Shown piece after piece: positions 8,775 to 28,417 of a stretch of DNA of 28,417 bases. The notes beneath the pieces were generated by a model. That model did no database searches. It was not told the DNA's origin and saw only the letters and a program-made list of their open reading frames with translations. The stretch spans positions 1 through 28,417 of the IMG/VR virus record IMGVR_UViG_3300030019_000135, one strand, 5' to 3'. The translations under genes were made by a program, and so were the position numbers. This DNA is from a virus. The first letter of the stretch is position 1, and the number at the start of each line of letters is the position of its first letter.

Positions 8775-9437
8775 ATGATCACACGAAAAACATTAATTGA
8801 TAAAGTTTATAAACGAACTGGAGGTGTCCTCACCTCAGCATATGGCACACCCAGAGATGGTGGTGCTCGAAAACATGCTGGTGAAGATTGGGACATTGCC
8901 GGAACAGAGTCTCCTAAAGTCTATTCACCATGGAATGGTATTGTTACACACGCCCAGACATCTATGTTGAATGACCGAGGTAGAGAAGTTGAAATCAAAA
9001 TAGGTAAGAAATATTTCTGGTTCCAACATCTCTCTAGTTGTAGTGTAACCGAAGGTCAGCGAATTGCTGCTGGTAAACAATTTGGTGTTCAAGGTGGTTC
9101 CGGTAAAGCACTTGGTTCATATAAATCTCACATGCATTTCGAAGTTTCGAATTATCCTATGGGAGATCCAAGACGAATTGCGCTCAATCCAGTGTACGGC
9201 CTTTATCTAACATTTATCCCACCTAAGTATCCCACAAAAAAAGTTATTGTTTCTGATCTACATATACGTCAAGGCCATAGTGTCAAAGGCAAAGCCCTTG
9301 GTTATATAGACCTCGGCCCCATAGAAATCTTTGAGCAGTATGTCCAAGATGGTTATGTCTGGGGACGAATTGACTGGGTGTTAGATCAGTGGATAGCCCT
9401 CAGATCAACTGATGGTAAAAAAGTTTACGCAAAATAA
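8775..9437 (+). CDS. Endolysin: M23 zinc metallopeptidase with C-terminal SH3-like domain
   Basis: This 220-aa peptidoglycan hydrolase would cut the peptide bridges of the cell wall at lysis. The M23 signature is complete: H34 and D38 in KHAGEDWD, H85 in FQHLSS, and H119-x-H121 in SHMHFEV. H34, D38 and H121 would hold the zinc, and H85 and H119 are catalytic. Residues about 157-220 (VSDLHIRQGHSVKGKALG, then GYVWGRID, then WIALR) read as a bacterial SH3-like wall-binding domain. No signal peptide is seen, so export would depend on the holin encoded 11 bases downstream. A strong AAAGGAG lies at 8763-8769. A virion-associated lysin is the alternative, but the adjacent holin favours endolysin. 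Confidence 0.9.
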   Translation: MITRKTLIDKVYKRTGGVLTSAYGTPRDGGARKHAGEDWDIAGTESPKVYSPWNGIVTHAQTSMLNDRGREVEIKIGKKYFWFQHLSSCSVTEGQRIAAGKQFGVQGGSGKALGSYKSHMHFEVSNYPMGDPRRIALNPVYGLYLTFIPPKYPTKKVIVSDLHIRQGHSVKGKALGYIDLGPIEIFEQYVQDGYVWGRIDWVLDQWIALRSTDGKKVYAK

Positions 9438-9448
9438 GGAGGTCTATT

Positions 9449-9655
9449 ATGAAAGAATCAACTAAAATTAACTGGTTAAAAAAATTTAAGTCATGGCCAC
9501 TATGGGCTGCCATCGCATCCTTCGTTGCTTTGATCGTTCAACAGTTTTGGGGTTTTGATATTGGTGACCAGCTCAATGATATCCTAACATCACTGTTTGG
9601 AATTTTGATCCTATTAGGTATCGTCAATAATCCCAATAGCCGGGGTACAATCTAA
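9449..9655 (+). CDS. Holin, phi LC3 family-like
   Basis: This 68-aa membrane protein would form the inner-membrane lesion that releases the endolysin. A short basic N-terminus with INW precedes two hydrophobic spans, WPLWAAIASFVALIVQQFWG (residues about 17-36) and NDILTSLFGILILLGIV (about 43-59). The end NNPNSRGT corresponds to the 'DPTTkG' ending of phi LC3-type holins, and the length is typical (70-85 aa). TAAGGAGG overlaps the stop of the endolysin gene, giving tight coupling of the two lysis genes. Two spans suggest a class II topology. Confidence 0.88.
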   Translation: MKESTKINWLKKFKSWPLWAAIASFVALIVQQFWGFDIGDQLNDILTSLFGILILLGIVNNPNSRGTI

Positions 9656-9676
9656 GCATCAATGGAGGGCAGAGAT

Positions 9677-10090
9677 ATGGAACCAACAACACTAGACGTC
9701 ACTCAAATAGGTCAAATTATTATATCTGTTGTTGTCGCACTTACAGGATTCTTCGGATCAATACTTTTACTTATTAAATATAGTAAGAGGATGAAACTTG
9801 CACTTATACGTTGGTTCCATCTTGGGTGCCGAAACGATAGTACAATGTGTGTTATCCTAGGTAACTCAATTATACATCGTTGCGAGATTGCTCAGATAAA
9901 CCGTTGTCTACCAGAACAAGAACGTGAATGGTTAATTAAATTAATGCACGAATACCAAGAAGTTCGAAGATGGAATGGTGTAGTTAAAGATCGATATGAC
10001 AGAACCATTGATCTACCATTAGAGCCCACCTACGAAGAAACTCAAAATCGTTTAAATGATGAAGCCGATTACGGCCGACATATCACATAA
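9677..10090 (+). CDS. Single-span membrane protein next to the holin (unknown, 137 aa)
   Basis: The start at 9677 is chosen because GGAGGG (9664-9669) is correctly spaced for it; an in-frame ATG at 9662 overlaps that site. Residues about 11-34 form one strong transmembrane segment (IIISVVVALTGFFGSILLLI), followed by a basic stretch (KYSKRMKLALIRW), which by the positive-inside rule puts the C-terminal domain in the cytoplasm. The cytoplasmic part has four cysteines and an amphipathic helix EQEREWLIKLMHEYQEVRRW. Its place after the holin suggests a lysis regulator (antiholin or accessory holin), but the family is not recognised. Confidence 0.75.
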   Translation: MEPTTLDVTQIGQIIISVVVALTGFFGSILLLIKYSKRMKLALIRWFHLGCRNDSTMCVILGNSIIHRCEIAQINRCLPEQEREWLIKLMHEYQEVRRWNGVVKDRYDRTIDLPLEPTYEETQNRLNDEADYGRHIT

Positions 10091-11738: not shown

Positions 11739-14700
11739 ATGACAGCACGAGGCAGATTTCATTTTACAACGTATGGTAAACACGGGACGGATACACCAAC
11801 ACCACGTCCTGTGTTGCCTTATGTCCCTAAGCCACAAGCACCAACTGCTTATGGTACAGCGTTAAAAAGCTTACGTTATAATGGAAATGTTCCTGTTGCA
11901 ACACCAGTACCGCTGCCTAAACAATTAGTACGGCCACCTGTTACAGCTAATACCTTATCATTAAGATATAATGGTGTAGTACCCGCATACCTTCAAGTAC
12001 CACAAAAATTAGTTGCAATGTCAACCGATATGAAAGATGGGTTTATACCCAATCCAGAATTATACGGTATTACACATAATGCTGATTTGATATACGACCT
12101 CAAAGGAAATCCGTCTCTTAAACTAAAACAGGATTCAGATACTGTTCAAGCATTCTTCAAGGACTACCTGGGGCAAATGTCCGATACCGAAGCAAGTGCT
12201 ATGACCAGTAAATTATTTGAGTCTGCCAGTAGATATGATTCCGTATCTAAAACATTCAAGAAAACTAAAGTAATGAAAATGAACCCAGACATCCCACCAG
12301 AATACTTGGATGCCTGGAATTATATTGCCTATGTTGATAAAGCGAAATCATATCAAAAAGATGTTGCTGCTAAGACATATATAGACAGAGCTAATTCCTT
12401 TTCAGATTATAATGACCCAGATCAAATAAACTCTGCAGCAGACGTAGTAAGACATACTTGGAATGACGTTACACAAAAAGGAGACTTACTAAGTGGATTT
12501 AAAAATTATTGGTCGTACGCAAAAAATGTATACCTAGACCCAATAGCGAATAAATCCGCAATGGCCTTTGGGATAAATGCCCTTATAGACTTTGGTGAAA
12601 CCTTGGATGCAATTACATTTGCCAAACCAGTTCGTGCGGCATTATTGCCGTATGAAGAATTATCTAATCCTAAGTCAAGGAATTATTTTCAATCTTCTCT
12701 GAGTCCATCAGAGCAATCACGATTACTTTCAGCTTACGATGTCGAAGGTCTCCTTACGAACACGCATGGCTCACATACATTAGGCACAAATACAAAAGCC
12801 AGACGGGATGCGGAGACTATACTTCGCATGAAATCTGATGGCGTATACGATGATTATCTCAGATATACTAAAGAGCTTGAAGAACATAAACAAGAATTAG
12901 ATAAAAAACTTGGTGGTCGATTCTTTAAAGGTATTACCAATGGAGACAACTATAGTGCCAATACAGGTATCGGTGCTAAAGATGTCTTCATGGAAATGGT
13001 AATGGATCCTACACTGTTTGCTTCTGGTCTTGGGGGAGCCACTAAAACCACAATCAAAGGCGCCGTTAAACTAAATACGATGACTGTAGTTGAACGGTTA
13101 ATTGATGCAGGAGCATTATCAGAAAGTAAAAAAGTTGCAAACTTTTATACAAAACAAATTAATCAGATCGTTAAAAAATTAGGACCTGAGTTAATGAGTG
13201 CTTCTCCGGAAAGACTAAAAGAAGTTATAGGTTCCACCGTGAAACGATGGGATTCCAAAGCAGTAGGTGTAGTTAAGACACACCCATCTGGTGCAAGTAT
13301 GTCAGATGTTGTTGAAAAAGAATTGATCAATCATTTCTCCGCATTGAGAAATGATAAGGCATATGCTGTTTTCCAAGCCGCGAAATTTATGACAGATGCA
13401 TCTGATAAGATTAACTCGGCCGGTATAAAAACAGTATTTGCCGTTCCGTATCTCACATACAAAGGTGTGAAATGGGGAACAAAGAAAATGGAGTTCATAA
13501 AAAATGCCACCTTCAAACCTATACTTGATAAGTACAAATTTAAAGATGGTACTAAAGGTACTTCGATTACACATTTCTATGATATATACAATGACTTTAA
13601 AGATGTTTCATCTGTTGTAACTAGTCGTGTTGATACACTGACTGATTTTGTTAATTCAAAAATTAGTAAAATGATGTTAGACGGTATGAAGATAGATGCT
13701 GCAAAGGTTACTCAGAAATTATCAGAAGCTGTAGTAACAAACAAAAATGATGCTAATGCTATGAAACAAGCTGTAGATAAAGTCATTGCAGATACAACCG
13801 AAGGTCGATATAAGACCATTGAGGAATATCGATCTTACTTAGAAAATCTGACAAACGATATGAATGGTCTGGTCCCAGAATTTACATTATTGCATAAAGG
13901 CACACAACAGGTTGAAGAAGCGATTGGTGCAACTTTAAATATTAGTCATCTCGAAGAGATGAAACGTGCAAACGATATTCTACAAGGTGCATTTAAACAA
14001 GGTTTGAAAGTCCCTGAAGAGAATCCAGAAAAAATCTTCATCAAAGAATGTTTTGATAAAGTAGACATTACAAACATTGCTGAGATTCTTACTGAGATTG
14101 CAACGCACTCAGATCGTAGTTATACTGCAGAAATGTTATACAAAGTATCAGATCAATTGAAAGAAGATTCAATTGGTCTATTTACTGATTTTAAAACATC
14201 ACCAATAGAAGTCGGATCTAGTATTGAAGAATATAGTCGAGCTCACATATCTGTCAAAAGTCAACTTACACAAATGGACGCATTGTTGAAAAAACAATAC
14301 GGCCCAGATATGACTATTCGAAAGTATGTTGCTCTATGGGATCAGATAAATCTACCCGCAACAAATCCGTTACTTAAAAATATATTAGAAGATATCGCGC
14401 CACACTTTATGAGAATAAAGCAAATGTTGGCGTTATATGATGGTTTACTATCCACAATTAAACTATTAAAGTCCGTTGCCAGGACAGCGAAAATAACAGG
14501 TAAAGCTTCTCAAGATATGTATGCGACTAGACAAATGTTAAATAAACGTATTCGGAGTATCGCAACTTCGGATCCGAATTTTAATTTATCCAAATACTTT
14601 GACAACAAATCACCAGATGATATTGTTGCAAAGTTAACAGATAAACCTAGATCTTTGACGAGTCCTAGACAACACTTGTATTTAACTGAATCCGATGAAA

Positions 14701-17700
14701 AGTTAAAACTTAGATTCAAAAATAAAGAATTACAAGTTATTAAAAAGAATCGAAGACAGGTTATCAAAGACACCAAAGTGATGTTAGCTAAACTTCGAGA
14801 AGTTACACAAGGTTCCGGTAACGAAGCTTTGTTACACTATCTCGATAAAGTCGAAGAAATCTTTGCAAGCAATCTACCCGATCGTAAGTTATTGCAAACA
14901 ATGAACTCGCTATTCAAATCTGCTAAAGATGGATTTGGGTATATCACACCACACAACAAAGTTGTATATAAAGCTCAAACAGAAGTTGAACAGTTTGCTC
15001 AGAAGACCTATCATAGTTTTATTGATACTGTGCTAAACCTGGGTGTTACTGTACGAGATCCTCAAAAATATGTCGATAAGATATATAATAAGGAATCTAA
15101 AATTTCTAGTTTGGACTTGAAGAATCAAGCCAAAAAAGAAGTTGTTGAGATTACAGATGAAGCGATAAACACTTATGGTGAATTATTAGCTAATAATAAA
15201 AAATATAATAAACGTACTTTCATTCGTAAGTTTTTCATTAAACCTACGAATGATAGTATTGATTTACTTATCCATAACGTTGAACTTCAAAAGGATTTAA
15301 CTGTCAATGCTACAATGCACATCCACTTAGATTATGTTATTGAACAGTTATCTGCAATCAAGGAAAACATTGATGATCTTTTTCATCCCATTGAAGGTAT
15401 GAAAGAATTAAACGCTTTAGAGTTATATAAGTCAGTTATTAGAGAAGTTACCAAAATCGAAGAACTTGTCGAGATGGGGCATACCCTCGAAAAAGAAATT
15501 AAAGATGAAGAAACTATAGTTTCTAAAATAAATATTGAAGGACGTTCAGCATTTGAGATCCGAGATCTTAAAGAGAATGGAGTTGTCTACACAGACGGTC
15601 GTAAAGCGATTGAAAAAGATAATTTACATTATCAATCTGAATATACTCCCAGTCACTCATTACCTCTACGAGAAACTGCTAAACCATTACGAGATGTATT
15701 CGATGACTCGCCTATATATAAAGTAATAGATACTTTTAAAAAGATGAGTGTCCCTACCGCCCAAGACAAAGATCTATTAGACTTTGGTATGGGTGGTACA
15801 TGGATGCGTTTCAAAGGATTGAATTTCCAAACTGCTAAAAGTTTTATCTTTGGCAAAGAAATGGTCAATCTAGTTAATGATGCTGTGCTAGGTACAGGTC
15901 CCATTGCTAAGCGATTTAAAGAGATCGACTCTGCAAAGGCTGCTGTCCCTTCCAGTGATACCCAAATAAATCAATTTATCGTTGCAAAGACTGTAGAGGA
16001 ACAATTAGCACGAGTGCAGCATTATCACAGATTAGCAGACGCACTTCAAGAAATCACAGGTACTGAAGAATTTGCTTATGACATATTAGATGTCATGGGT
16101 TCCTATTATCATATGGACTCGACTTATTTTCGTAATCCCATTGGCACAATGATGAATGAATTAGTTAATAAATTAAAACTAAAATTATATGCTGAACATA
16201 ATGTTACAAGTTTATCTTTAGATAATTTCAGACAAATGTTATTTGATAAAGATAGTGAATTTTGGTCTGCATTTAAACCAGACGATTATGAACAATGCAA
16301 AGGTCTTATTGATAAACTAATTGAATCCGGGCACGTTAGTCCTTTACAGGATGTCCGACTACAAGAATTTATGATTCGTGTCAGAGGTGCTAACGGAGCA
16401 GATGGCAAAGCCGTATTCCAATTAGGCAATCTTCAGACTGCCAAATATGATGCATTAGTTGCTGATGGTAAAACAGTCTATGTCTCAGATATAGAGACAT
16501 CAACATTAAATGCTAATATTGGTATGGTTACTTCTGTTGCATACAAAAAATGGGTGCCACTTGAAAGTGATGCCCTGAGTCTAAAAGAGGTTTTAGAACA
16601 TTGTATGAGAAATGAAGATATATACGAAAGACGTGTTAAATTAGATAGACGTTTAGAAACATCATATCCTAATGCAAATGCTATCGAAATGTATCCTGGT
16701 CAGAATAGATCTGAACGTTCCGGAAATTGGAAAGAATTGCATACAACTGCAGATCGTCAAGATGTTTTTGAAGAAAAAGATTTACTTGAGGAAGTGTGGA
16801 ATAAAACAGGTATGCCCACCAATTCCGATAATGTTTATTGGGTACACCACAACATGAATAACTTTGATGCTGCATTTTTTAATAAAAGATTGCGAGCAGC
16901 ATCTGACTTAGAAGGTTCTGGTTCTTCATTATCCCTTAAACATGTTATGAACTCTCTGGAAGAAATGAAGCCTGAAGGTGCTCGTATTGATACAGATGTA
17001 GAAGCTAAAATTGCAGAAGCAATTGCTGAATTTGCAGGGAACATCTCTGGGAACATGACACTATTTGAACATAATGATTTCATTAATAATCTTCGAAAGT
17101 TATTCCCAGAATATGAATCAAGACTCGCTGATCCAGAATCAGAATTAGGTACAACACTTACACCAATTTTTGACTCGATCAATAATCTACAAACGCTTTC
17201 AAATGCAATGCATGATGCTAACAAATTAATGCGTTGTACTTTAACATTAGAACCTCGTTCATTGAAAATCAAAGATTTTCCTAATGAGTTTCTTATGAAG
17301 TATTTCACTCCTGCAGAGTTAAATGATTATGCTATTAATGTGGCTAATAATCCTGTAGCCAATAAGGTTTATTTGGAAAACAAATGGAATAAGGTATTTC
17401 AAGATAGATATATGGAAGACGCATTAAAAAATGCAGATTTTGCTGATGAAGAGATTATACGAATCATGTCTGAGAATCCTAATACGATGCGTTGGATTCA
17501 ACTTACTTTAGGACATAAACAAATGGGTTACGCCAAAGAACTTGAATGGAGTAAAGTTGCGCAGCAATTTGATATTACAGATTTAAAGCTCAGTCTTGAA
17601 GGTATATACATTCTTAAAACTTTACTTCGTAAAATCTCAACTGAGACTGACTATAAGATTAAAAGTATTGAGTGTCTTAGACCTTATCGTCGATCTTTAT

Positions 17701-20700
17701 CTACAATGGTCGATGTTCTTAAAGAGGATTTAAAACTTCAACCATTTGTTTCTGAAGAGGCCGATATACTAAGTCGTATGCTCCAGCCAGAAGATGAAGC
17801 AACACTATACGTTATGGCTCGTGAATTATATCAGTATTACAATTCTGAAGGTCGTACTTTAGACAAGTGGTTAGAGTCACATGCCACATCAGAAATGGTA
17901 GACCTTGTAGCACAAATGCATATGATCTACCGAGATGATGCGTTCATGTTTGACTCAGCAGTTCATCAAACAAATCGTGAGTTGATTGGACCAATTAATC
18001 TATTAGACGGAGATGGACTTAAAACAAATCGTTTAATAAATGATGTTAAAGATTCTAAATATCGTTGTGAAAAACTCAATGATGTTGTAGATGACCAACG
18101 TGCATTAAATGGTAAAACTTTTGCAATATCTGCATCAGTTGATATTTGTCTGGACCCACTTGAAAAGTACAAACTTTTACCTATGACGCATCAGGCATTG
18201 TTCCAGGATATCGAACGAGAAGTTCAATTGAAACAACAAGAGTTATTGTATGACGCTATGTTAGATCAATGGGCAGACCCAGATAAACTTATTTCCCATT
18301 TACTATATAATGGTCATTTGATCCTATCAAAAAATGGTAACAGCAGTTCTATCAATAAGAAATTATTGAAACTGGTTGAAGATATAAGTGCTATGCATGG
18401 TGTTAGACCGGTTGTTAAAGAGAATAAAAAACTAGGACATATTCTAATTGGATTGCCTAATTTTTCTAAGATCAAATATTCTTCGGAAACACAACTGTTA
18501 TCCTTAGATGGTAAAGAATATGTTAAGTACAATGAAGTTCATGTACTTCCAGATTATGCTAAGTTTACTGGTAAGCTGAGTCAAAATCGAATAGATCGAA
18601 TTGCTCAACAATACGGTATCCCTAAGCGTAACATGACACTAATCGAAAATCAAGATTTTGATTTTGCAGATATAGCTGAACCTATGATGAAAGCACATGA
18701 AGAAATTCGAGCTATGTCTGAATTTGAATCCGATGGAAGTCTGGGTACAGTCTTGACTGCCAAGCATGTACAGGAATATATGAATGCTTTACCTACAGAG
18801 TTTACAAGTAAAGTTTTAACTGCTGACTTCTTGAGTGAGGGTATTTTTTGGAGAGGCCCTAGGTTTGATAAGACTATATACGGAATTGGCGAAGCACGAT
18901 TCGGTCTATTTGGTCCGAAAAATGCAGCATATAAAACCGGGCTCATTAGCAACTTTTATGCAATTCGTAATATTGCTGCTCGTGTTGAAAATGAAGTGCT
19001 GTATGCTAATATGTTTTTCAATCGAAAAAATATGTTAGGTGTTGCAGACTTCTTTAAGGGTGCAAGTCAACAAGAGATTGTTGATGAATTGCAGAAGCAT
19101 CCAGAGTATACTGTTGTCTCTATTACAGGTCGAGATAAGCAGATACGAGATCCACATGCTGAGGGTTATGTAACTAAAATCGTTCCAGGGTATCAAATAT
19201 TTAAACATGAGATTCAAGATACTAAAGATATCGAAATGGCTTTACAAGCTGATGCGATTGTGGTTCCGAAGTTTATCTACGAAACCACCTTCCAGGAGTT
19301 GAACAAGAATAACGTGTCCGGCCCGTTCTTAGCCAGATGGTCCAGAATTGTACATGCTTACAAAACAGGTTATTTATTCTCACCAGGAACATGGGTTAGA
19401 AACTACATGGATTCAACCATTAAAGCGATGATGGCTAATGGAGATCCATTAGGTACACTTGGCTATCAAGTGCAAGGTTTGAAAAAGATGACTCAGTATA
19501 ATCAAGTACTACAAGACATCTATACATTTTCTCCTGGGAGCAGACATATAGATACCTACAATCTTGATGGTTATTACCGCATGATGGGTAATAAAGTTGC
19601 GTTATCTAAAGACGAGTTCCTTACCTTACACGGAATTATTACTGGCTTTGGTAATGAGTCTGATGTCCTTCAAAAACAATTTAGACATATTGATAAAGTT
19701 GCCAAACGACAATATGCCTTGAAAGACGCTGAAGGTAACATTCGATTAGGTGTTAAGGACCCAGCCAAAGGTATGGATGCGGATATGCTTACCTCACTCT
19801 ATAGTAAAGTAAAAGCTCCTCCTATGGCGTTCTCCAGATTCATGGAAATCCGCAAATATTCTGAAGCACGTTTTGTTAAACTGGGCGAAGTTGAACGTAA
19901 AGCTTATGCAGATACGACTAATGCCATTCTGGATAAGAAAGTCTGGGAAGACGCGCCGGTCCATGATAAGATCAATGACGTCTATAATATGATGGTGGAC
20001 ACCATGCTCAGTCCTATGAGTTTTACAGAACGTGTCGTAAGACTGGGGCATTACCTCGACATGGAAGCTAATGGTTATACTGCGAATGAGATATTCAGCA
20101 GTATCTCAGACACGCATTTCAACTATATGATGAAGTCTAACGCAATGAGAACTTCAGAGTTACTTATTCCGTTTGCATTCTTTGAAAAGAATAACCTTGA
20201 GTTCTGGCTTAAAGCAATAGATGATAATCCTGTTGCGATTAACATGTTTGAAAAGATCATGGGTGAGACTTCATGGGATTTCAACGAAACAGATGTTGAT
20301 GATTATAAGTATAATATGTCATTACAAGCAGCTATGCTTAATGGTACCACAACCTTAGATATGGCTACTGGTTGGACATTGAAGTTGAATCCTTCAGCAA
20401 TGTCTGCTCTAGGTTGGTGGTACAATACACCAAATGCGTTTATTGAAAAAACCATTACACCTGTAAGACAGGTTATGATAGATTCAATTGCAAACTATGG
20501 CGCCGGTATACCTAATCTGTTTGATCCGAATTTATTCTGGTCAGCTAATCCGACAGATGAATGGTATAAGTCATTACTGACTTGGAACAATGTTCCAATA
20601 TTCGGGCCATTGGTAATTAGATATTCTCAGATGGCACCTAAGTACGCACAACGTTTGAGAGACGCTGGTGAACAAGACCCAAGTATCGTAACTACAAATC

Positions 20701-21809
20701 AGAATGGACAATTTCGTTCTTCTGAAAGTGGTGGTTCATTAAGTCTATTAACTGCAATGGTATTGCCAGACTTATTCGGTGCGTTAAGTGTTACACCGAG
20801 TACAGTTAAGTTTGAATCTTTTGCATCATTCCAAGACAATCTAAAAGAACAAGGTAGAGTCTATGATGCTAACACTGGTAAGACTGTTGACCTAGACGAA
20901 CTCAGCAAAGGTGGACTCAACGATTTCTTTTTCGAAGGTTTCAAATCAGATGATAAAGAAGCTAAAGCTTTATTGTTTGAACAGCTCAAAGATGTAATGC
21001 TCGAATACAAACAAAAAGTTTGGGATGCTAACGTACAAGATTTTGTACCAATAGGTGAGATTAGACTTGGTGGTCTGAACAAAGATTACAATTTAGACGA
21101 TGGTGATTGGCCTCAGCTCTGTTCAGATATGAAGAAATATCTGGGTAAAGTCTGGGATGCTAACCAACGTACATTTGTTAAAGATGGTAATCAATTGCCA
21201 GGTATGCTTAACACTAAAGGTCTTTCATGGGAACAAGTTGTTTACTATCGTGACAAACTGTTCGATGAAAAGTGGGATGCAAACTTTGGTGAGTTCGTAC
21301 CGGCTGAAGAATACTCTGGCGATGTCGGTCTAAACCAAAAGAATCTTACATGGGACGAAGTTGTTTATTACAAACGGCTCCTACAAGATATGGTTTGGGA
21401 CGATACATCTCAACAGTTCGTACCGGCAACAGACAAGGCAACGTCTGCATCTGTCACCCAGAAATACAAGACTGGTACCTTCGGTGGTTATAAAATAACT
21501 GGCGCACCTATGATCCCAACAACAGATGTCGGGGGAACAAAGTTTGCCACTACATCGAAGAAGTATAAATCCTCTTCAGTAGCTGGAGTTGTTACACCAT
21601 TGTATCAGAATGACTATGGTGTTCAAACGAATTACTATAACTATGCAACCTACAAAAGTATTCGTAGAATGCAGGGTCGTACTAATTCTCTTATCAATCA
21701 GTTACGATACAGACGTTTCGTACCGCTTGAAAAGATTCACAATGTAACAACCCTTGACACTCGTCAAAGGTTAGCTAAAATAAATAATGAATTTAGAATA
21801 TGGAGGTAA
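11739..21809 (+). CDS. Giant virion-type protein (3356 aa) with an internal DEDD exonuclease module
   Basis: This is probably a DNA-ejection (internal virion) protein, on size and position. Reading along it: residues 1-110 are Pro-rich with two LRYNG repeats; 250-450 include an MDPTLFASGLGG segment (D423) of a kind I recall from large phage structural proteins; 450-1400 are long charged helices. Residues about 1580-1830 form a DEDD exonuclease-like module (separate entry). The stretch around S2548-N2555 (SPGTWVRN), then MMANGDPLG, recalls the polyvalent-protein 'NP.f..RN' helical domain (LPD38 type; tentative). Residues 3039-3235 contain five W-D-A-N repeats (separate entry). The C-terminus is basic. 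I looked for single-subunit RNA polymerase motifs (DxxGxxQ, RxxxKxxxMxxxYG, HDS) and for HExxH and found none. A modest AGAAGG lies at 11726-11731, and the start is four bases after the previous stop, implying coupling. Codon use matches the rest of the operon. Confidence 0.85.
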   Translation: MTARGRFHFTTYGKHGTDTPTPRPVLPYVPKPQAPTAYGTALKSLRYNGNVPVATPVPLPKQLVRPPVTANTLSLRYNGVVPAYLQVPQKLVAMSTDMKDGFIPNPELYGITHNADLIYDLKGNPSLKLKQDSDTVQAFFKDYLGQMSDTEASAMTSKLFESASRYDSVSKTFKKTKVMKMNPDIPPEYLDAWNYIAYVDKAKSYQKDVAAKTYIDRANSFSDYNDPDQINSAADVVRHTWNDVTQKGDLLSGFKNYWSYAKNVYLDPIANKSAMAFGINALIDFGETLDAITFAKPVRAALLPYEELSNPKSRNYFQSSLSPSEQSRLLSAYDVEGLLTNTHGSHTLGTNTKARRDAETILRMKSDGVYDDYLRYTKELEEHKQELDKKLGGRFFKGITNGDNYSANTGIGAKDVFMEMVMDPTLFASGLGGATKTTIKGAVKLNTMTVVERLIDAGALSESKKVANFYTKQINQIVKKLGPELMSASPERLKEVIGSTVKRWDSKAVGVVKTHPSGASMSDVVEKELINHFSALRNDKAYAVFQAAKFMTDASDKINSAGIKTVFAVPYLTYKGVKWGTKKMEFIKNATFKPILDKYKFKDGTKGTSITHFYDIYNDFKDVSSVVTSRVDTLTDFVNSKISKMMLDGMKIDAAKVTQKLSEAVVTNKNDANAMKQAVDKVIADTTEGRYKTIEEYRSYLENLTNDMNGLVPEFTLLHKGTQQVEEAIGATLNISHLEEMKRANDILQGAFKQGLKVPEENPEKIFIKECFDKVDITNIAEILTEIATHSDRSYTAEMLYKVSDQLKEDSIGLFTDFKTSPIEVGSSIEEYSRAHISVKSQLTQMDALLKKQYGPDMTIRKYVALWDQINLPATNPLLKNILEDIAPHFMRIKQMLALYDGLLSTIKLLKSVARTAKITGKASQDMYATRQMLNKRIRSIATSDPNFNLSKYFDNKSPDDIVAKLTDKPRSLTSPRQHLYLTESDEKLKLRFKNKELQVIKKNRRQVIKDTKVMLAKLREVTQGSGNEALLHYLDKVEEIFASNLPDRKLLQTMNSLFKSAKDGFGYITPHNKVVYKAQTEVEQFAQKTYHSFIDTVLNLGVTVRDPQKYVDKIYNKESKISSLDLKNQAKKEVVEITDEAINTYGELLANNKKYNKRTFIRKFFIKPTNDSIDLLIHNVELQKDLTVNATMHIHLDYVIEQLSAIKENIDDLFHPIEGMKELNALELYKSVIREVTKIEELVEMGHTLEKEIKDEETIVSKINIEGRSAFEIRDLKENGVVYTDGRKAIEKDNLHYQSEYTPSHSLPLRETAKPLRDVFDDSPIYKVIDTFKKMSVPTAQDKDLLDFGMGGTWMRFKGLNFQTAKSFIFGKEMVNLVNDAVLGTGPIAKRFKEIDSAKAAVPSSDTQINQFIVAKTVEEQLARVQHYHRLADALQEITGTEEFAYDILDVMGSYYHMDSTYFRNPIGTMMNELVNKLKLKLYAEHNVTSLSLDNFRQMLFDKDSEFWSAFKPDDYEQCKGLIDKLIESGHVSPLQDVRLQEFMIRVRGANGADGKAVFQLGNLQTAKYDALVADGKTVYVSDIETSTLNANIGMVTSVAYKKWVPLESDALSLKEVLEHCMRNEDIYERRVKLDRRLETSYPNANAIEMYPGQNRSERSGNWKELHTTADRQDVFEEKDLLEEVWNKTGMPTNSDNVYWVHHNMNNFDAAFFNKRLRAASDLEGSGSSLSLKHVMNSLEEMKPEGARIDTDVEAKIAEAIAEFAGNISGNMTLFEHNDFINNLRKLFPEYESRLADPESELGTTLTPIFDSINNLQTLSNAMHDANKLMRCTLTLEPRSLKIKDFPNEFLMKYFTPAELNDYAINVANNPVANKVYLENKWNKVFQDRYMEDALKNADFADEEIIRIMSENPNTMRWIQLTLGHKQMGYAKELEWSKVAQQFDITDLKLSLEGIYILKTLLRKISTETDYKIKSIECLRPYRRSLSTMVDVLKEDLKLQPFVSEEADILSRMLQPEDEATLYVMARELYQYYNSEGRTLDKWLESHATSEMVDLVAQMHMIYRDDAFMFDSAVHQTNRELIGPINLLDGDGLKTNRLINDVKDSKYRCEKLNDVVDDQRALNGKTFAISASVDICLDPLEKYKLLPMTHQALFQDIEREVQLKQQELLYDAMLDQWADPDKLISHLLYNGHLILSKNGNSSSINKKLLKLVEDISAMHGVRPVVKENKKLGHILIGLPNFSKIKYSSETQLLSLDGKEYVKYNEVHVLPDYAKFTGKLSQNRIDRIAQQYGIPKRNMTLIENQDFDFADIAEPMMKAHEEIRAMSEFESDGSLGTVLTAKHVQEYMNALPTEFTSKVLTADFLSEGIFWRGPRFDKTIYGIGEARFGLFGPKNAAYKTGLISNFYAIRNIAARVENEVLYANMFFNRKNMLGVADFFKGASQQEIVDELQKHPEYTVVSITGRDKQIRDPHAEGYVTKIVPGYQIFKHEIQDTKDIEMALQADAIVVPKFIYETTFQELNKNNVSGPFLARWSRIVHAYKTGYLFSPGTWVRNYMDSTIKAMMANGDPLGTLGYQVQGLKKMTQYNQVLQDIYTFSPGSRHIDTYNLDGYYRMMGNKVALSKDEFLTLHGIITGFGNESDVLQKQFRHIDKVAKRQYALKDAEGNIRLGVKDPAKGMDADMLTSLYSKVKAPPMAFSRFMEIRKYSEARFVKLGEVERKAYADTTNAILDKKVWEDAPVHDKINDVYNMMVDTMLSPMSFTERVVRLGHYLDMEANGYTANEIFSSISDTHFNYMMKSNAMRTSELLIPFAFFEKNNLEFWLKAIDDNPVAINMFEKIMGETSWDFNETDVDDYKYNMSLQAAMLNGTTTLDMATGWTLKLNPSAMSALGWWYNTPNAFIEKTITPVRQVMIDSIANYGAGIPNLFDPNLFWSANPTDEWYKSLLTWNNVPIFGPLVIRYSQMAPKYAQRLRDAGEQDPSIVTTNQNGQFRSSESGGSLSLLTAMVLPDLFGALSVTPSTVKFESFASFQDNLKEQGRVYDANTGKTVDLDELSKGGLNDFFFEGFKSDDKEAKALLFEQLKDVMLEYKQKVWDANVQDFVPIGEIRLGGLNKDYNLDDGDWPQLCSDMKKYLGKVWDANQRTFVKDGNQLPGMLNTKGLSWEQVVYYRDKLFDEKWDANFGEFVPAEEYSGDVGLNQKNLTWDEVVYYKRLLQDMVWDDTSQQFVPATDKATSASVTQKYKTGTFGGYKITGAPMIPTTDVGGTKFATTSKKYKSSSVAGVVTPLYQNDYGVQTNYYNYATYKSIRRMQGRTNSLINQLRYRRFVPLEKIHNVTTLDTRQRLAKINNEFRIWR
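11871..12014 (+). repeat. Two LRYNG-type repeats at the N-terminus of the giant protein
   Basis: Residues 45-64 (LRYNGNVPVATPVPLPKQLV) and 75-92 (LRYNGVVPAYLQVPQKLV) are copies of one unit spaced by 30 residues, inside a Pro-rich, poorly ordered N-terminal arm. A shorter echo, LRYRRFVP, occurs near the extreme C-terminus at about 21695-21725. Such arms often bind a partner protein such as a portal or core protein, but no partner can be named from the sequence. Confidence 0.75.
16479..17240 (+). other. DEDD-family (DnaQ/DexA-like) 3'-5' exonuclease module inside the giant protein
   Basis: Three motifs occur in order. ExoI is VYVSDIETST (D1584 and E1586, at 16488-16496). ExoII is WVHHNMNNFDAAFFNKRL (D1710, at 16866-16868). 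ExoIII is LSNAMHDANKLM (D1826, at 17214-17216). D, E, D and D are the four metal-binding acids of RNase T/DnaQ-type nucleases. In ExoIII the usual pattern is H-N-A-x-x-D-A, and here the first position is Ser1821, so the catalytic histidine of the DEDDh class seems replaced. The spacing between motifs (126 and 116 residues) is longer than in compact exonucleases, so insertions are likely. Activity on DNA or RNA cannot be decided. Confidence 0.7.
20853..21446 (+). repeat. Five degenerate V-[YW]-D-A-N protein repeats near the C-terminus of the giant protein
   Basis: Copies begin at residues 3041 (VYDANTGK), 3094 (VWDANVQDFVP), 3138 (VWDANQRTFV), 3178 (KWDANFGEFVP) and 3219 (VWDDTSQQFVP), with periods of 53, 44, 40 and 41 residues. 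Between them the units share 'GLN.K.LtWeqVvyYr..L' (GLSWEQVVYYRDKLFD, NLTWDEVVYYKRLLQD). The DNA keeps TGGGATGC(T/A)AAC in three copies, so the units arose by duplication. The strand-then-helix unit of about 40 residues resembles short binding repeats. Confidence 0.88.
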
Positions 21810-22481: not shown

Positions 22482-23379
22482 AAGGCGGTACCTCCACTAC
22501 AGGTGCAGCAATTGCTTTAGCAATGTGATCCTGTAGTTTCATTTCGAAATCTGGTTTACGACCACGTCTGATTAATTCCCAGACCTTATTACTTTCGATA
22601 ATAAGATTCTGAATTACAACGTCGTCTCTCCAGATTACGAAGATATATACACGCCAGTCTCGTTCAAAGATTACACATAGATAGCCAAATGGTGCATTGG
22701 CTCCCATAATCTGTTGTTGAACCTGGGTGTAATAATACGGTGGAATACCGTATTGTGCAGCCTTAGTTTGAATAGTGTTCATTGTAGACAGACCGAAGTT
22801 TTCCGGCATTGATAAAAATCCGATTCCTTCCTGGAACCAAGCTTTCTTAAAATCATAATGTTTGAATCCAAAAGTCGTGCAGACTTTCATCTCTGCTGGG
22901 ATATAGACATACTTGTCACCTTCAGTAAATTCCTTATCTACAATACCATCATAGTTGATCTTGAGCCAAGGGAAATCTTTCATGGCATACATGTCTACTG
23001 GTTTGATAATTCGTTTACCTAGAATCTCAGCAACCTTTGAGATAACCATAGGTTCCAGATCCGCACCTTTACGGACTGAGTCTTTTAAGCCAATGGCTTT
23101 CTCATCTTTTGTAAGATGATCTCTACATTTTTCTTCGACCAGTTGCTGTCTTGTAGTGTAAGGACTTACACCTAGTACAGAACTAGCGTCTGATCCACCA
23201 AGACCGTCTTTACGAATGAGCGCATATGCCTCATTAGGATACTGGTCTATCTGTTGGACTGCTATTTCAATAGGTAATTGTGATAGGTCTAATACTCCAG
23301 CATTAGCTGCTGAGAAATCAAATCCTTTGTTGTACTCTGCCAGATATTTTTCATCATCTGGGTTTACTGTTATCGTCAT
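22468..23379 (-). CDS. YqaJ / lambda-exonuclease-type recombination nuclease
   Basis: This 303-aa PD-(D/E)xK nuclease would chew 5' ends of double-stranded DNA to give 3' tails for annealing or strand exchange. The YqaJ signatures are present: GLGGSDASSVLGVSPYTT (residues 59-76), RKGADLEP with E109, NYDGIVD with catalytic D144, PAEMKV with E163-x-K165, and the C-terminal YYYTQVQQQIMG (215-226). The start at 23379 follows AGAGGAG; a longer reading from 23418 would overlap the upstream gene further without a site. It overlaps the diphosphohydrolase-like gene by 26 bases. No annealing protein (RecT/Erf/Beta-like) is visible next to it in this window. Confidence 0.88.
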   Translation of the reverse strand: MTITVNPDDEKYLAEYNKGFDFSAANAGVLDLSQLPIEIAVQQIDQYPNEAYALIRKDGLGGSDASSVLGVSPYTTRQQLVEEKCRDHLTKDEKAIGLKDSVRKGADLEPMVISKVAEILGKRIIKPVDMYAMKDFPWLKINYDGIVDKEFTEGDKYVYIPAEMKVCTTFGFKHYDFKKAWFQEGIGFLSMPENFGLSTMNTIQTKAAQYGIPPYYYTQVQQQIMGANAPFGYLCVIFERDWRVYIFVIWRDDVVIQNLIIESNKVWELIRRGRKPDFEMKLQDHIAKAIAAPVVEVPPYGTE

Positions 23380-24073
23380 TGAATGCTCCTCTCTTATAAA
23401 ATTCACTGAGGAATGCACAATTGCAATCTAAGTGAAATAAATGAGGTAAGCCCGATTCCTCGTCTAATGATAATGGATCGGCAGCAAATGCTAAAGCATG
23501 CCTTAACATTGCATCCACCCATCTGTAAGGATCTACGGTTAACCAGGAATCTGGTGCCTTGTACTTATCATTACCAAACTTTTTAGCAATAGCGATATAG
23601 TGCATAATCTGTGATGGGGCTAAACGAAGTTCAGCTTTACCGCTATCTGCTTTATAGAGTTGTGGTTTTTCAGTATCTGGCGTCTCGTCCCATTGCTTTT
23701 CTGTAATGATATCGATCTTTCTCTCTTCGCCCTCGTCACAACCTATTAACCCAAATAGAACTTGATTTCGTTTTAAACAAAATGGTGCCTTTACTACTTG
23801 ATTAGTTGCTAGGTAGTAACCGCATTTGTCACAAGTTACTACTGGTGATTTTCGTCCCATGTGTACGGCTACTGTATCAATACGTTCTTGGAGTCCTTTT
23901 TCGAAATTCCTTTGGTAGTATGTACCAGCATCTTCGATTTGCTTTTCAGTAAGCATATCCGGTTCAGCTTCTATACCAAAGACATGTTGCATTCTTACAT
24001 GCATATCTTCTTCTGGTATTTCTTCGGGGATGTCGTCTTTGACATATTCAAATCTTGATTTTTGTTTACTCAT
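23354..24073 (-). CDS. dATP/dGTP diphosphohydrolase-like protein (DUF5664 type) with an N-terminal zinc-ribbon-like part
   Basis: This 239-aa protein has the DUF5664 pattern from about residue 143 on: SGKAELRLAP, KKFGNDKY, DSW, YRWVDAMLRHALAF (R191, H192), and DEESGLPHLFHLDCN (204-218). Members of this family are annotated as dATP/dGTP diphosphohydrolases that remove pyrophosphate from purine deoxynucleotides, changing the nucleotide pool. Residues 81-112 carry four cysteines (CDKC, FC, GC), which look like a zinc ribbon in front of the catalytic part. The start at 24073 follows GAAGGAG. The gene overlaps the resolvase gene by 8 bases. Activity is inferred from the family. Confidence 0.78.
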   Translation of the reverse strand: MSKQKSRFEYVKDDIPEEIPEEDMHVRMQHVFGIEAEPDMLTEKQIEDAGTYYQRNFEKGLQERIDTVAVHMGRKSPVVTCDKCGYYLATNQVVKAPFCLKRNQVLFGLIGCDEGEERKIDIITEKQWDETPDTEKPQLYKADSGKAELRLAPSQIMHYIAIAKKFGNDKYKAPDSWLTVDPYRWVDAMLRHALAFAADPLSLDEESGLPHLFHLDCNCAFLSEFYKRGAFNDDNSKPR

Positions 24074-24668
24074 GTTTATCTCCTTCCCATGGTTTATCAC
24101 GGTAGTTATAAAACGTCATTTGTTTAGGTTTCTTAGTAGCAACTGGTTCTGGCTTCTTAATCTTATAATGTGCATAATGAATCATGTGGCGCATTGCATC
24201 GATTTCATGTCGATTTATTTTCTTACCGTCTTCTACCAACCGGTAGAATGTTTGAAATGATTCTAAGATATGCACTTCTTCTAAGACTTCGTTACTCCAG
24301 CGTTTCTTAACATCGGCTGCACGTTGGAAGACATAGTCTATTCCAGATTCCCAACAGAATACCTGCATGACTCCAATGAGTCTACATGTTTCCATTCGGG
24401 AGTTAATCTGAGCAGCAGCTTTATCATGATACAACAGATAGTCTTCCATGACGACCACAAGTTTATCCTTGTAATGGTCAGCCATAGAAGCAATTAGTAT
24501 GTTATGCGCTCGCCAGTATTCCTCTGGTGTAGAGAAATTCTTAGCTGTGATAAAGCCTCTGTCCAGAACTTTTTCGAACTTGTTTCCCAGAACCCAGCCG
24601 GTTGTTCCTTGACCCTCGTGGAATGATCCAGATGGGTCTATGGACAGAATATAATCGTATTCTTTCAT
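24066..24668 (-). CDS. RuvC-like Holliday junction resolvase (RNase H fold)
   Basis: This 200-aa endonuclease would cut branched DNA made by replication and recombination before packaging. Residues 8-26 read LSIDPSG...TTGWVL with catalytic D11. E75 lies in VVVMEDYLLY. The third motif is NRHEIDAMRHMIHY with H154, E155, D157, R160 and H161. These three acidic clusters are the RuvC/RNase H-fold pattern. The tail is basic (KKPEPVATKKPK). The ATG overlaps the polymerase stop as ATGA, so translation is coupled to the polymerase. A terminase-type nuclease is less likely because there is no ATPase part. Confidence 0.82.
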   Translation of the reverse strand: MKEYDYILSIDPSGSFHEGQGTTGWVLGNKFEKVLDRGFITAKNFSTPEEYWRAHNILIASMADHYKDKLVVVMEDYLLYHDKAAAQINSRMETCRLIGVMQVFCWESGIDYVFQRAADVKKRWSNEVLEEVHILESFQTFYRLVEDGKKINRHEIDAMRHMIHYAHYKIKKPEPVATKKPKQMTFYNYRDKPWEGDKHE

Positions 24669-26773
24669 AGCTTAGGTTTTCCTTTCTCAGCCCAATTAGT
24701 TTTGGTTACTTCATACTCAGCGATAATTGGAATTTTGGACTCAGGCCAATCTTCCATAATTGCTTTGATTAGAGGTATGAATTGAAAACCTTGTTCTGTG
24801 TATATTTCGAAGCTTAGCTCATCGTGTATTTGCATTTGCATCTTGATATGTTTCCCCTCATTTTTAATGAGATTGTAAATATCAATTATTTTAAATTTAA
24901 GTAGATGAGCTGCACTCCCTTGAATAAGTAGATTTTTTAGTTTGTGTCCGGATACATTGTAGTATCGGACACCGAACAACGACTGTGTATTACTGAATCC
25001 GTTTGCACGTTCCTTACAGTATTTGTGATATTCACGAATACCGGGAAAAGCTGTATAGTAAGATTTGTCAATTTTGACACATTCTTCTAATGACTTTTCT
25101 GGGAACATTTCTCTGATCCGATTTAGTTGAGCACCGTAATTCTTAGAGAAGTTTACTTTCTTTCCAATGTCAGTTCTGAGTTTTTGGAAATCTGGGTGAG
25201 ATTCATCTAAGCCGGTTGCTGCTTTGGTTGTTTCTGAATGTACATCGACAGGATGCCATTCTGTTTCTGGAGATTCATTAAGATAGAATACTCCATTACG
25301 TTCTGTACAATCAAAAGGCATGTATGCTCTGCACATATTCAGATCTGGTTTACCCAAAAGCATGGTGTATAAGGCTTGTATGCGCAGTTCAATCTGGGAA
25401 TAGTCCAGATAACCTATTGCATATGGCGCTTTAACGATTTTTCGGGGTTTAAATAACTCCTTGGAATCTACAGTCGAAATGGCCTTTTTTGGAAATTGTT
25501 GGAAGTCACTGGTGACTCTACCAGACACGGCTCCGACCTGGTTGATAGTTGTATATAACCTATCTCCAGTTTTGAGATCCTTTTGGAATCGTAAAATGTA
25601 AGCGGAGTACCATTTCTCCAAAGTTCGTAATTCCTGTACCCGATTTATAAAATCAACTGCAGGATCATCTTTGAAGAGGTTTAGTTTTAACAGATTCAAT
25701 TCTTCTTCACCGGTACTTTTACATTCAACTTCGAACTTGTCATTGAGTAAGTCTTTGATCAGTTCATTCTGTGATACCTTTAGGTATTGCCCAGCTACAA
25801 CATAGAGTTCTTCACGTCGTTTGATTATGTAAGTCTTTAGTTTGACTCTGGACTTTTCAAGATATTCCTTATCTGCCAGGAAGCCTGTTCGTTCCATATT
25901 AAATAATGGTACGATTAGGTTGTTCTCCAGTTCAATAGCGATTTCTTGATGTCGTCCTTCTATGACGTGAGCGAGACTGAAGTATACTTCAAAGGTGTAC
26001 ACGATATCCAGATGTGCATACTTGATTAGGTTCATTCGATCCAGGTCACTGTATCTAATCATATCTGCTTCTACAACAGTCTGTACTTTCAATTGAAGAT
26101 ATGCTGGAAGCGATGCTCTCCAAGCCAAATATGGTATTTGATATTGCTCTGGAAGATCTGATACTTCGTAGATTGTGTCTCCGAAATACTTAGCCATATC
26201 TTTCATTGTGATACCTAGTGCTCGTTTGAGTTGGAAGTTATAAATTTTAGCAATGTCTGATCTTTCTTTTTTCAAAAGTTGTTCATGTAATTTTGCGGTG
26301 TGGTCTATATACTTTGTAGCGTATTCTTTTAGTTTCATAGGTGGGCCCCCTTCAGAAATATGAAGTGAGTCATGTGCATATCTGATATAAAAGGCCGTAT
26401 CCGTAAATTTGAGTTCTTCATACTGCGTTATATCTTGTCCAATGTTTGCCAGCATATGCAGATCAAATTTTAGATTATGTCCTATTATAGTTGCTTTGTT
26501 CCAGCGGCACCAACCTATAAGTTTCATCATTACTCTGTTAAAGTAAATGCTGTTTACTTCAATCGCAAATGTATAACCATCGAGTCTTGTAAAATCAACA
26601 TACCCAAATTGAATGAGAAATGGTTTGTCATTTATGATGTGTAATCCAGTTGTTTCTGTATCCAGAGTAATGATGTTCTTTTTAGGCTCCCCAAGGTTAC
26701 TGAAAGTTTTGTTGAATACTCTAAAGCTAAATTCATTGTCAATATCAAGACTGGTCCATTTATATTTCAACAT
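24665..26773 (-). CDS. Family A DNA polymerase with 3'-5' exonuclease domain
   Basis: This 702-aa polymerase would copy the phage genome. Exonuclease motifs: ITLDTETTG (D38, E40), IGHNLKFDLHM (D104), YAHLD (Y252, D256), so proofreading looks intact (DEDDy type). Polymerase motifs: VSGRVTS, motif A YLDYSQIELR (D457), motif B GKKVNFSKNYG (K538/K539, F542, Y546), motif C IHDELSFEI (H650-E652). There is no 5'-3' exonuclease domain, as expected for T7-type phage polymerases. I chose the ATG at 26773, which has GGTG-rich Shine-Dalgarno bases at a proper distance; a GTG at 26782 has no properly spaced site. The gene overlaps the helicase end by 14 bases. Phe at the O-helix position corresponding to E. 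coli F762 predicts selection against dideoxynucleotides. Confidence 0.95.
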   Translation of the reverse strand: MLKYKWTSLDIDNEFSFRVFNKTFSNLGEPKKNIITLDTETTGLHIINDKPFLIQFGYVDFTRLDGYTFAIEVNSIYFNRVMMKLIGWCRWNKATIIGHNLKFDLHMLANIGQDITQYEELKFTDTAFYIRYAHDSLHISEGGPPMKLKEYATKYIDHTAKLHEQLLKKERSDIAKIYNFQLKRALGITMKDMAKYFGDTIYEVSDLPEQYQIPYLAWRASLPAYLQLKVQTVVEADMIRYSDLDRMNLIKYAHLDIVYTFEVYFSLAHVIEGRHQEIAIELENNLIVPLFNMERTGFLADKEYLEKSRVKLKTYIIKRREELYVVAGQYLKVSQNELIKDLLNDKFEVECKSTGEEELNLLKLNLFKDDPAVDFINRVQELRTLEKWYSAYILRFQKDLKTGDRLYTTINQVGAVSGRVTSDFQQFPKKAISTVDSKELFKPRKIVKAPYAIGYLDYSQIELRIQALYTMLLGKPDLNMCRAYMPFDCTERNGVFYLNESPETEWHPVDVHSETTKAATGLDESHPDFQKLRTDIGKKVNFSKNYGAQLNRIREMFPEKSLEECVKIDKSYYTAFPGIREYHKYCKERANGFSNTQSLFGVRYYNVSGHKLKNLLIQGSAAHLLKFKIIDIYNLIKNEGKHIKMQMQIHDELSFEIYTEQGFQFIPLIKAIMEDWPESKIPIIAEYEVTKTNWAEKGKPKL

Positions 26774-28417
26774 TAACTTCACCTACCTTTGAGACGAATG
26801 TCTTTTTGTTGATCCGTGCAAGTCCTAATCTGAATCGTTCTGTTGGAACAATATCATAATTGTTGTACTTTACGAATAATCCTTTAGTCATTCTAGTCAG
26901 AGCTTTATTCATTTCCTCAGTGGTTAATCCTGTAGCTGCCAGAAGGATTTGTCGTCCTGTTGCGGCGCTTTGCTCCAATTGGAGTATTAACATGGGGGTC
27001 TTGTCATAAATGTCCTGTAGTAATGCTACACCCTCTTCATCAATATGAGTGAATTGCTTTTCAAAAGCGATGTACTCCTTGAGTTTGAAGGTCGAATTAT
27101 CGTATAGACTGACTAGGATTTTTTCTGCTAAATCAACGTGTTCTTTTTTAACAATAATGTTTTCATAGGAAGCATCTGTGCTAACAACATAACCTGCTAT
27201 TGCAATTGCTAATCTGCTTATCTTTTTCCAAGCCTCTGTTCCGAAGATTTTGATATGACCTTCGTAGGTCTTGTTCAAAGTATTTGAGCGATCTATAATA
27301 TGCAATTCTACAGATCTGTCAATTAGTATCTGGTCTGCTGTTCTGGACCATATCCAACGAATACGATCTCGATAAACTCTGGTATCCAGAGGGGTTTCTG
27401 GTTTCCAATCGGGGTCTATTTTACTATTCCCTTTGTCTGCCAGTACACAAATTAAATCGTATCGGGCTATATCCTCAGCAGAGGTTACTAATTCTGTTAG
27501 CACAGCGATTCCGTTAGGATAGGAAGCTACGCTTTTTATTTGTCCACCTACGTTCTTTGGATTGGTTAATGATATCATTCTTACCATTGCCGGTAGTGTG
27601 ATCGTTCCTGCGACTCTGGTGATCCGTACTTCATTTGAAGATCTGATGTCTGTCAACTCAGTAATGACAGAATTGTTTGATTTACCAAATTCTTCAAAGA
27701 TTACTAACCCTCTGTGATTCTGTGGAATAATACCTGCTCTGGTTTGGTACCCATTAGCGGTTTTATTTGAGCCTCCTACCAGTCCTGGTATGGTTGCTGA
27801 ATTACCTGCTAAGGATGTGAATGTACCTAATCCATATATCTTTCTCAGAGCATCTGCGGTTGAAGATTTACCTGTTCGGGATTCCCCAACGATGATTGTA
27901 TCCAAATATGCCCTGACGTTTTGAAAGTGTCCAAAATGGAATTGTAGCGGTGTATGAAATGCTAGATCGATTATTTCGATCAGTTGATTATTTCCATCAT
28001 AGCCCAAGAGCCCTTTTACCTTTTCTATTAGGATGTGAATTTTGTCAGGTATAGGCCCTTGGATATCAATGATGGTCTGAAGAGAAGCTTTGATGTTCTC
28101 GGTCAGTTTGAAATTTGTAACTGAGTCATTGGCTTGTTTTGCATCTGTGATGATCATAATTAATTGTTGCCCCTTATAGGGATGAGGCACAATTTTGTAT
28201 GTCGCCAGATACTTCTGTCCAGACTCCAGTTTATTGGTCAGAGAATATGCGGTATACTCCATGGGTTGTGTTGTGGATGCATCAGCGGTCTCAAACATGT
28301 CTGTAACAAAACATTTGAACACTGTTGCTTGTTGTAGGGTTTTAATACTTACATAACGTTCTTTTTGAAGTATCCGCAAGATGTCTCTGATGTTCTTTTG
28401 TATTATGTCTTCACGAA
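26760..28417 (-). CDS. MCM-like AAA+ replicative helicase (5' partial)
   Basis: This protein of at least 552 residues is probably the replicative DNA helicase. The reading frame stays open to the window edge (residues REDIIQKN... upstream of a TTG at 28379), so the true start lies beyond. Signatures: Walker A VGESRTGKSS (about 27864-27893), Walker B GLVIFEEFGK (about 27685-27715), sensor 1 SLTNPKN, and the MCM-type arginine-finger phrase ARYDLICVLADKG, equivalent to 'SRFDLvfvl.D'. A preceding part (YLATYKIVPHPYKGQQLIMI) may be an OB-like fold, and the C-terminal 90 residues look like a winged helix (LTTEEMNKALTRM). The N-terminal zinc finger of cellular MCMs is not visible in the part present. 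It heads the reverse operon and ends inside the start of the polymerase gene. Confidence 0.83.
   Translation of the reverse strand, partial: REDIIQKNIRDILRILQKERYVSIKTLQQATVFKCFVTDMFETADASTTQPMEYTAYSLTNKLESGQKYLATYKIVPHPYKGQQLIMIITDAKQANDSVTNFKLTENIKASLQTIIDIQGPIPDKIHILIEKVKGLLGYDGNNQLIEIIDLAFHTPLQFHFGHFQNVRAYLDTIIVGESRTGKSSTADALRKIYGLGTFTSLAGNSATIPGLVGGSNKTANGYQTRAGIIPQNHRGLVIFEEFGKSNNSVITELTDIRSSNEVRITRVAGTITLPAMVRMISLTNPKNVGGQIKSVASYPNGIAVLTELVTSAEDIARYDLICVLADKGNSKIDPDWKPETPLDTRVYRDRIRWIWSRTADQILIDRSVELHIIDRSNTLNKTYEGHIKIFGTEAWKKISRLAIAIAGYVVSTDASYENIIVKKEHVDLAEKILVSLYDNSTFKLKEYIAFEKQFTHIDEEGVALLQDIYDKTPMLILQLEQSAATGRQILLAATGLTTEEMNKALTRMTKGLFVKYNNYDIVPTERFRLGLARINKKTFVSKVGEVNVEI

Follow-up and report, generated by a model that had tools for sequence, protein, structure and literature searches.

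A single-chain primase-helicase, probably of DnaG-type primase and MCM-type motor, at the end of a phage genome fragment

We analysed a viral fragment of 28417 bases (IMG/VR record IMGVR_UViG_3300030019_000135; the window), and specifically the gene that is cut off at its right-hand end. This gene very probably encodes a single-chain primase-helicase in which a DnaG-type zinc ribbon and a TOPRIM domain are followed by a predicted OB-like MCM N-domain, an MCM-type AAA+ motor and a winged helix. The first-pass annotation had described it as a phage replicative helicase of the MCM type whose primase must be sought outside the window. The MCM assignment holds, but the helicase does not appear to be a stand-alone protein, as the same chain in its relatives begins with a zinc ribbon and TOPRIM primase. 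Similarly, the primase does lie beyond the contig end, but as a part of the same polypeptide rather than at a separate locus.

The reading frame is open on the minus strand from 28415 to a stop codon at 26760-26762, a total of 551 codons that run off the contig end. Since the source record is a linear fragment of 28417 bases, the missing N-terminus reflects the end of the assembly, and an exact 35-mer search of viral contigs returned no contig extending past base 28417. The first residue encoded in the window aligns with approximately residue 391 of 941 in a complete relative, L002. By this alignment the window protein would be the C-terminal 59% of a protein of ~940 residues, with ~390 N-terminal residues (zinc ribbon, TOPRIM and the start of the MCM N-domain) predicted to lie beyond the contig end. 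The motifs GESRTGKS, VIFEEFG and ARYDL reported by the first-pass annotation are all located in this frame, and its reading of ARYDL as a finger phrase is correct if the term is taken to mean the arginine-finger motif of MCM (SRFD). The features of this gene and of the adjoining one are listed below, with residues counted in the window protein.

26760-28415, minus strand: TOPRIM primase-MCM helicase fusion gene, C-terminal 551 codons (open reading frame; PHROG 18685 matched from profile position 467)
28104-28325, minus strand: part of a beta-rich, OB-like N-terminal domain at the MCM N-domain position, residues 31-104 (AlphaFold2 strands 32-38, 53-59, 69-77 and 85-94)
27426-28103, minus strand: AAA+ ATPase core, residues 105-330 (Pfam MCM 3.3e-10; Foldseek top 50 all MCM)
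27864-27887, minus strand: Walker A GESRTGKS, residues 177-184 (Lys 100% conserved)
27735-27776, minus strand: helix-2 insert beta hairpin, residues 214-227 (AlphaFold2 model)
27684-27704, minus strand: Walker B VIFEEFG, residues 238-244 (Glu242 100% conserved)
27591-27632, minus strand: pre-sensor-1 beta hairpin, residues 262-275 (AlphaFold2 model)
27561-27563, minus strand: sensor-1 Asn285, in SLTNP (100% conserved)
27453-27467, minus strand: arginine-finger motif ARYDL, residues 317-321 (Arg318 100% conserved; aligned with MCM SRFD)
27096-27425, minus strand: pre-sensor-2/lid helices, residues 331-440 (AlphaFold2 model; W354 and K398 invariant, R358 and R401 near-invariant)
26799-27083, minus strand: C-terminal winged-helix-like domain, residues 445-539 (AlphaFold2 secondary structure)
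24665-26782, minus strand: family A DNA polymerase (PolA) with 3'-5' exonuclease domain, next gene in the same direction (DNA_pol_A 3.8e-41; DNA_pol_A_exo1 2e-8)

The primase half is seen in the relatives. Six complete relatives (L002, L003, L004, L006, L026 and L028) that are 68-73% identical to the window protein encode 937-941 residues, and a DnaG-type zinc ribbon and TOPRIM primase is present at the N-terminus of 81 of 81 non-redundant complete relatives, indicating that the missing primase is most likely the other half of the same gene. In these 81 full-length proteins, as distinct from the truncated window protein, the zinc ligands C21/H25/C51/C54 (L002 numbering, here and for E186 and D226) are 98-100% conserved, as are the TOPRIM acids E186/D226/D228/D264 (D264/D267). 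A profile of the relatives' N-terminal region matches Aquifex DnaG (7.9e-23), the zinc-domain entry 1d0q (3.7e-12) and the T7 gp4 primase (6.4e-10). In addition, Pfam CHC2 scores above cut-off in Paenibacillus phage SV21 (9.1e-11), Weizmannia phage Youna2 and Bacillus BSTP5, and Toprim_2 does so in Youna2 (1e-10), Microbacterium phage OverHedge (8e-10) and BSTP5. A different arrangement is found in two contigs of actinobacterial metagenome-assembled genomes (L113, 5917-9570; L114, 2-3156), where a primase-side gene is split from an MCM ATPase gene of 441-451 aa with small open reading frames between them; here the TOPRIM-MCM system may occur unfused.

As for the motor half, the Walker A Lys, Walker B Glu, sensor-1 Asn and ARYDL Arg are conserved throughout the 81 relatives, so the three motifs are not chance occurrences, even though their letters (GESRTGKS, FEEF, ARYD) are variants. 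The AlphaFold2 model of the window protein (pLDDT 88.1, pTM 0.84) exhibits the helix-2 insert hairpin, the pre-sensor-1 hairpin, the pre-sensor-2/lid helices and a C-terminal winged helix, the last as a helix-helix-helix-strand-strand pattern at residues 474-532 that is weak by sequence alone. The domain preceding the ATPase is beta-rich in predicted models and resembles the MCM OB domain. Where MCM carries the zinc ribbon of its N-domain, a comparison of fusion-protein residues ~312-430 (L002 numbering) across L002-L112 revealed a C..CxxC motif that is present in distant subgroups and lost in the window's own, and a related Cys pattern occurs in L010, a protein in which MCM is fused to an archaeo-eukaryotic primase (AEP-MCM). 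When the model was compared with the PDB by Foldseek, the best 50 folds were all MCM (best 8.6e-20, with alignments of 440-570 columns), and a profile built from 50 sequences, the window protein and its relatives, retrieved only MCM chains among the best 60 PDB matches (best 5.4e-8). By sequence and predicted structure, the window ATPase is thus MCM-type.

Several observations weigh against the single-chain reading or the role that we propose for it. The window lacks the primase half, which is inferred from relatives at 68-73% identity, and Pfam Toprim is below cut-off in the window's own subgroup. On the helicase side, the Foldseek TM-scores are moderate (0.5-0.6) with a large root-mean-square deviation over the full length, and the OB N-domain is drawn from predicted structure, its profile match to archaeal MCM N-domains being non-significant (E 0.05). 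The tree described below does not fix the root between phage and cellular MCMs. Finally, no helicase, primase or polarity assay was found for the TOPRIM-MCM family.

The first-pass annotation had also pointed to a linkage between MCM and a family A polymerase, and this linkage is real. The MCM-fusion and PolA frames overlap by ~20 nt, and PolA lies <=120 bp downstream in 61 of 94 related loci. In L002 there are genes for an SF2 helicase, a P-loop ATPase and an SSB-like protein upstream and a RecE-type exonuclease downstream. No DnaB_C domain or DnaB-type helicase was found in the 18 records checked, which comprise 5 annotated phage records and IMG/VR records that may be incomplete. The domain order of the relatives, the conserved catalytic and zinc residues, the MCM-like sequence and predicted fold, the PolA linkage and the lack of a DnaB-type helicase in these records are the basis for the following model. 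The fusion protein would have both helicase and primase activity and, judged from its context, a replicative role. A hexameric ring would encircle one strand, with ATP hydrolysed by Walker A/B of one subunit and, in trans, the arginine finger of the next. The motor would move 3'-to-5' on the leading-strand template, by analogy with MCM and with BcMCM, the AEP-MCM fusion of a Bacillus cereus prophage, which moves 3'-to-5' in vitro (PMC4538821). The N-terminal primase domains would be located around the N-tier face, where they could meet the excluded lagging strand and lay primers, and PolA, acting as the replicase, would extend these primers and copy the leading strand.

A different role can be envisaged in which the protein is a replication initiator and origin-melting helicase, or a repair helicase, like MCM8/9 or the Cch protein of SCCmec, while host DnaB drives the fork. 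MCM8/9 also score in the profile search, there is a precedent in the MCM-like Cch, which acts with element-specific partners (PMC7581432), and the fork function of the fusion protein is itself putative, which leaves room for such a role. We nevertheless regard it as improbable. The protein is fused to a complete primase, its gene keeps its place ahead of PolA, the two frames overlapping or abutting, and relatives have an SSB-like gene upstream, which together form the pattern of a fork module. In addition, the 18 records yielded no phage DnaB that could serve instead; a DnaB loader was not sought in them.

We consider it very unlikely that the ATPase falls in a neighbouring clade of AAA+ proteins (YifB/ComM-Mg chelatase, MoxR/RavA, an NtrC-type regulator or a restriction-type ATPase) rather than being an MCM-type helicase. 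The Pfam results do leave some room for this, since Mg_chelatase also exceeds its cut-off on the window protein (2.8e-6, relative to 3.3e-10 for MCM) and since the MCM model cross-hits other clades, exceeding its cut-off in 14 of 14 control genomes that include E. coli and B. subtilis. The Pfam MCM match is therefore weak by itself, and we rejected it as sole proof. However, both PDB searches returned MCM only, and HHalign comparisons favour archaeal-type MCM (4e-26) over YifB (6e-13) and MoxR/RavA (7e-8) by at least 13 orders of magnitude. The comparison with other AAA+ clades that the first-pass annotation had proposed was run as a profile search and ranked MCM first, so that profile, fold and profile-profile searches all place MCM ahead of YifB/ComM and MoxR/RavA. 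The YifB family TIGR00368 scores only 17.7 bits against a cut-off of 362.4, and there is no YifB-type N-terminal half, the primase and OB-like domain being there instead. The order of OB-like domain, AAA+ core and winged helix, the primase fusion and the PolA neighbour also speak against another clade.

Fusion of MCM to an AEP primase is a known bacterial form, namely BcMCM (McGeoch & Bell 2005; Samuels 2009; as summarised in PMC4538821 and PMC5862659). A similar protein is encoded by Bacillus phage vB_BboS-125, where an AEP primase (DNA_primase_S 3.9e-10) precedes the same kind of MCM module, and ~20 IMG/VR contigs match this protein over nearly its full length and presumably carry an AEP primase too. 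In HHalign, the MCM modules of the TOPRIM and AEP forms match each other at 7e-73, far closer than either matches archaeal MCM, and the TOPRIM-form module has its closest relatives in the AEP-form modules identified here. That the AEP form sits on the closest MCM module suggests that one helicase has had its primase swapped between two unrelated types, TOPRIM and AEP. Our trees agree that phage MCMs cluster together, apart from cellular MCMs. They disagree on the root, as AEP-MCM nests inside TOPRIM-MCM in the tree that includes YifB/RavA, while TOPRIM-MCM is one clade (98/100) beside AEP-MCM in the tree with archaeal-type MCM as the only outgroup. The RavA/MoxR rows of the former tree are long branches, and either primase may have come first. 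That the window itself is an AEP-MCM of the BcMCM kind with only its AEP half cut off is barely credible. Such proteins do share this kind of MCM module, but the window lies deep within the TOPRIM-MCM part of both trees, and its relatives have zinc ribbon and TOPRIM N-terminal to MCM instead of an AEP of the DNA_primase_S type, in every complete close relative and in all 81 aligned proteins.

The first-pass annotation regarded an MCM in a phage as notable. An MCM is indeed present, but phages of Bacillota were already known to contain one in the AEP-MCM form of BcMCM (PMC4538821, PMC5862659). The new part is the primase partner. In our searches of the literature on MCM with TOPRIM, primase or phage we found AEP-MCM only and no description of a TOPRIM-MCM fusion, though an earlier mention may exist. 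We lean, with modest confidence, toward a widespread and unnamed class of phage replisome in which a DnaG-type primase is covalently attached to a leading-strand 3'-to-5' MCM motor and, as happens in the eukaryotic replisome, primes the excluded strand at the N-tier, with TOPRIM and AEP primases exchanged on one phage MCM lineage. The inferred polarity is what makes this case interesting, because other TOPRIM primase-helicase chains use 5'-to-3' RecA-type motors, and it raises the question of how a DnaG-like primase works on a helicase expected to run opposite to its usual partners. If the polarity is conserved, primase-helicase coupling would be independent of motor direction, and the phage protein would offer a one-chain model for the geometry of CMG and primase. 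Helicase and primase both differ between the bacterial and the archaeal/eukaryotic replication machineries, and the finding of two unrelated primases on one MCM module bears on how viruses could have mixed these machineries.

A single profile scan identified 283 relatives in IMG/VR, from which we retained 79 loci; the same scan gave 12 relatives in genome assemblies, almost all of them contigs of metagenome-assembled genomes. Isolates with relatives infect Paenibacillus larvae, Weizmannia, Bacillus subtilis and Microbacterium. The closest isolates infect Paenibacillus larvae and one of them is named vB_PlaP_API480, and it is plausible that the window derives from a Bacillota podovirus. The relatives are deposited in databases as 'DNA primase' or 'primase/helicase', and many phage genes under the former name have an unrecognised MCM half.

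Additional observations concern other genes. The PolA gene is interrupted in three related loci (L030, 7778-10670; L067, 8683-11124; L078, 8660-11221), and the gap in L030 contains an HNH-like endonuclease reading frame (9364-9786), as for an intron or an inserted homing endonuclease; Rfam reported no intron at gathering score. Following PolA in the window, and kept there in relatives, is a gene for a 200-aa protein starting MKEYDYILSIDPSGSF (24066-24668, minus strand; PHROG 1981, unknown function), a start that we take to be reminiscent of RuvC-like resolvases. The next protein (23354-24100, minus strand) has the dATP/dGTP diphosphohydrolase N-terminal domain PF18909 (4.8e-18), a family linked to modified-base phages. 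This protein, together with a weak match of PolA to DpoZ, suggested an aminoadenine (Z) genome, but we dropped this candidate since a PurZ-like gene is absent in 18 related records and since the DpoZ score is only 94 bits, the cut-off being 500. A reading frame of 3356 residues (11739-21809, plus strand) takes up more than one third of the fragment without a Pfam or PHROG match, and we would guess that its product is a giant virion or ejected protein.

Among known proteins, the 'DNA primase' of Paenibacillus larvae phages SV21 (930 aa) and vB_PlaP_API480 has the same architecture as the window family, is 34.7% identical to the window protein across 97% of the latter, and has DNA polymerase I as the next gene in SV21, although these records carry only that name and leave the MCM half unnamed. 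BcMCM is likewise one chain of Bacillota phages with the primase N-terminal to the MCM motor, but its primase is of the AEP type, whereas the one predicted here belongs to the unrelated DnaG/TOPRIM type and has a CHC2 zinc ribbon. The archaeal SsoMCM and the eukaryotic MCM2-7 share the AAA+ core with helix-2 insert and pre-sensor-1 hairpin, an SRFD-like finger, a predicted OB-like N-domain and the C-terminal winged helix. They differ in having only ~13-17% identity in structural alignments and a Walker A of GDPxxAKS in place of GESRTGKS; in the fusion protein, moreover, a primase is covalently attached, and the window's subgroup has lost the zinc motif of the N-domain. T7 gp4 and Twinkle are TOPRIM primase-helicase chains built on a 5'-to-3' RecA-type motor that walks on the strand being primed. 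They resemble the window family in having a ring helicase preceded in the same chain by a zinc ribbon and TOPRIM primase, and the T7 protein also works with a family A polymerase. However, the T7 motor is a RecA-fold SF4 helicase that moves 5'-to-3' on the lagging-strand template, while the motor of the window family is not a RecA-fold SF4/DnaB domain but an AAA+ ATPase of the MCM type with an expected 3'-to-5' polarity. The T7 gp4 primase also acts on the strand that passes through its motor, which differs from the geometry proposed here. The proposed placement of the primase is topologically similar to that of the eukaryotic CMG helicase.

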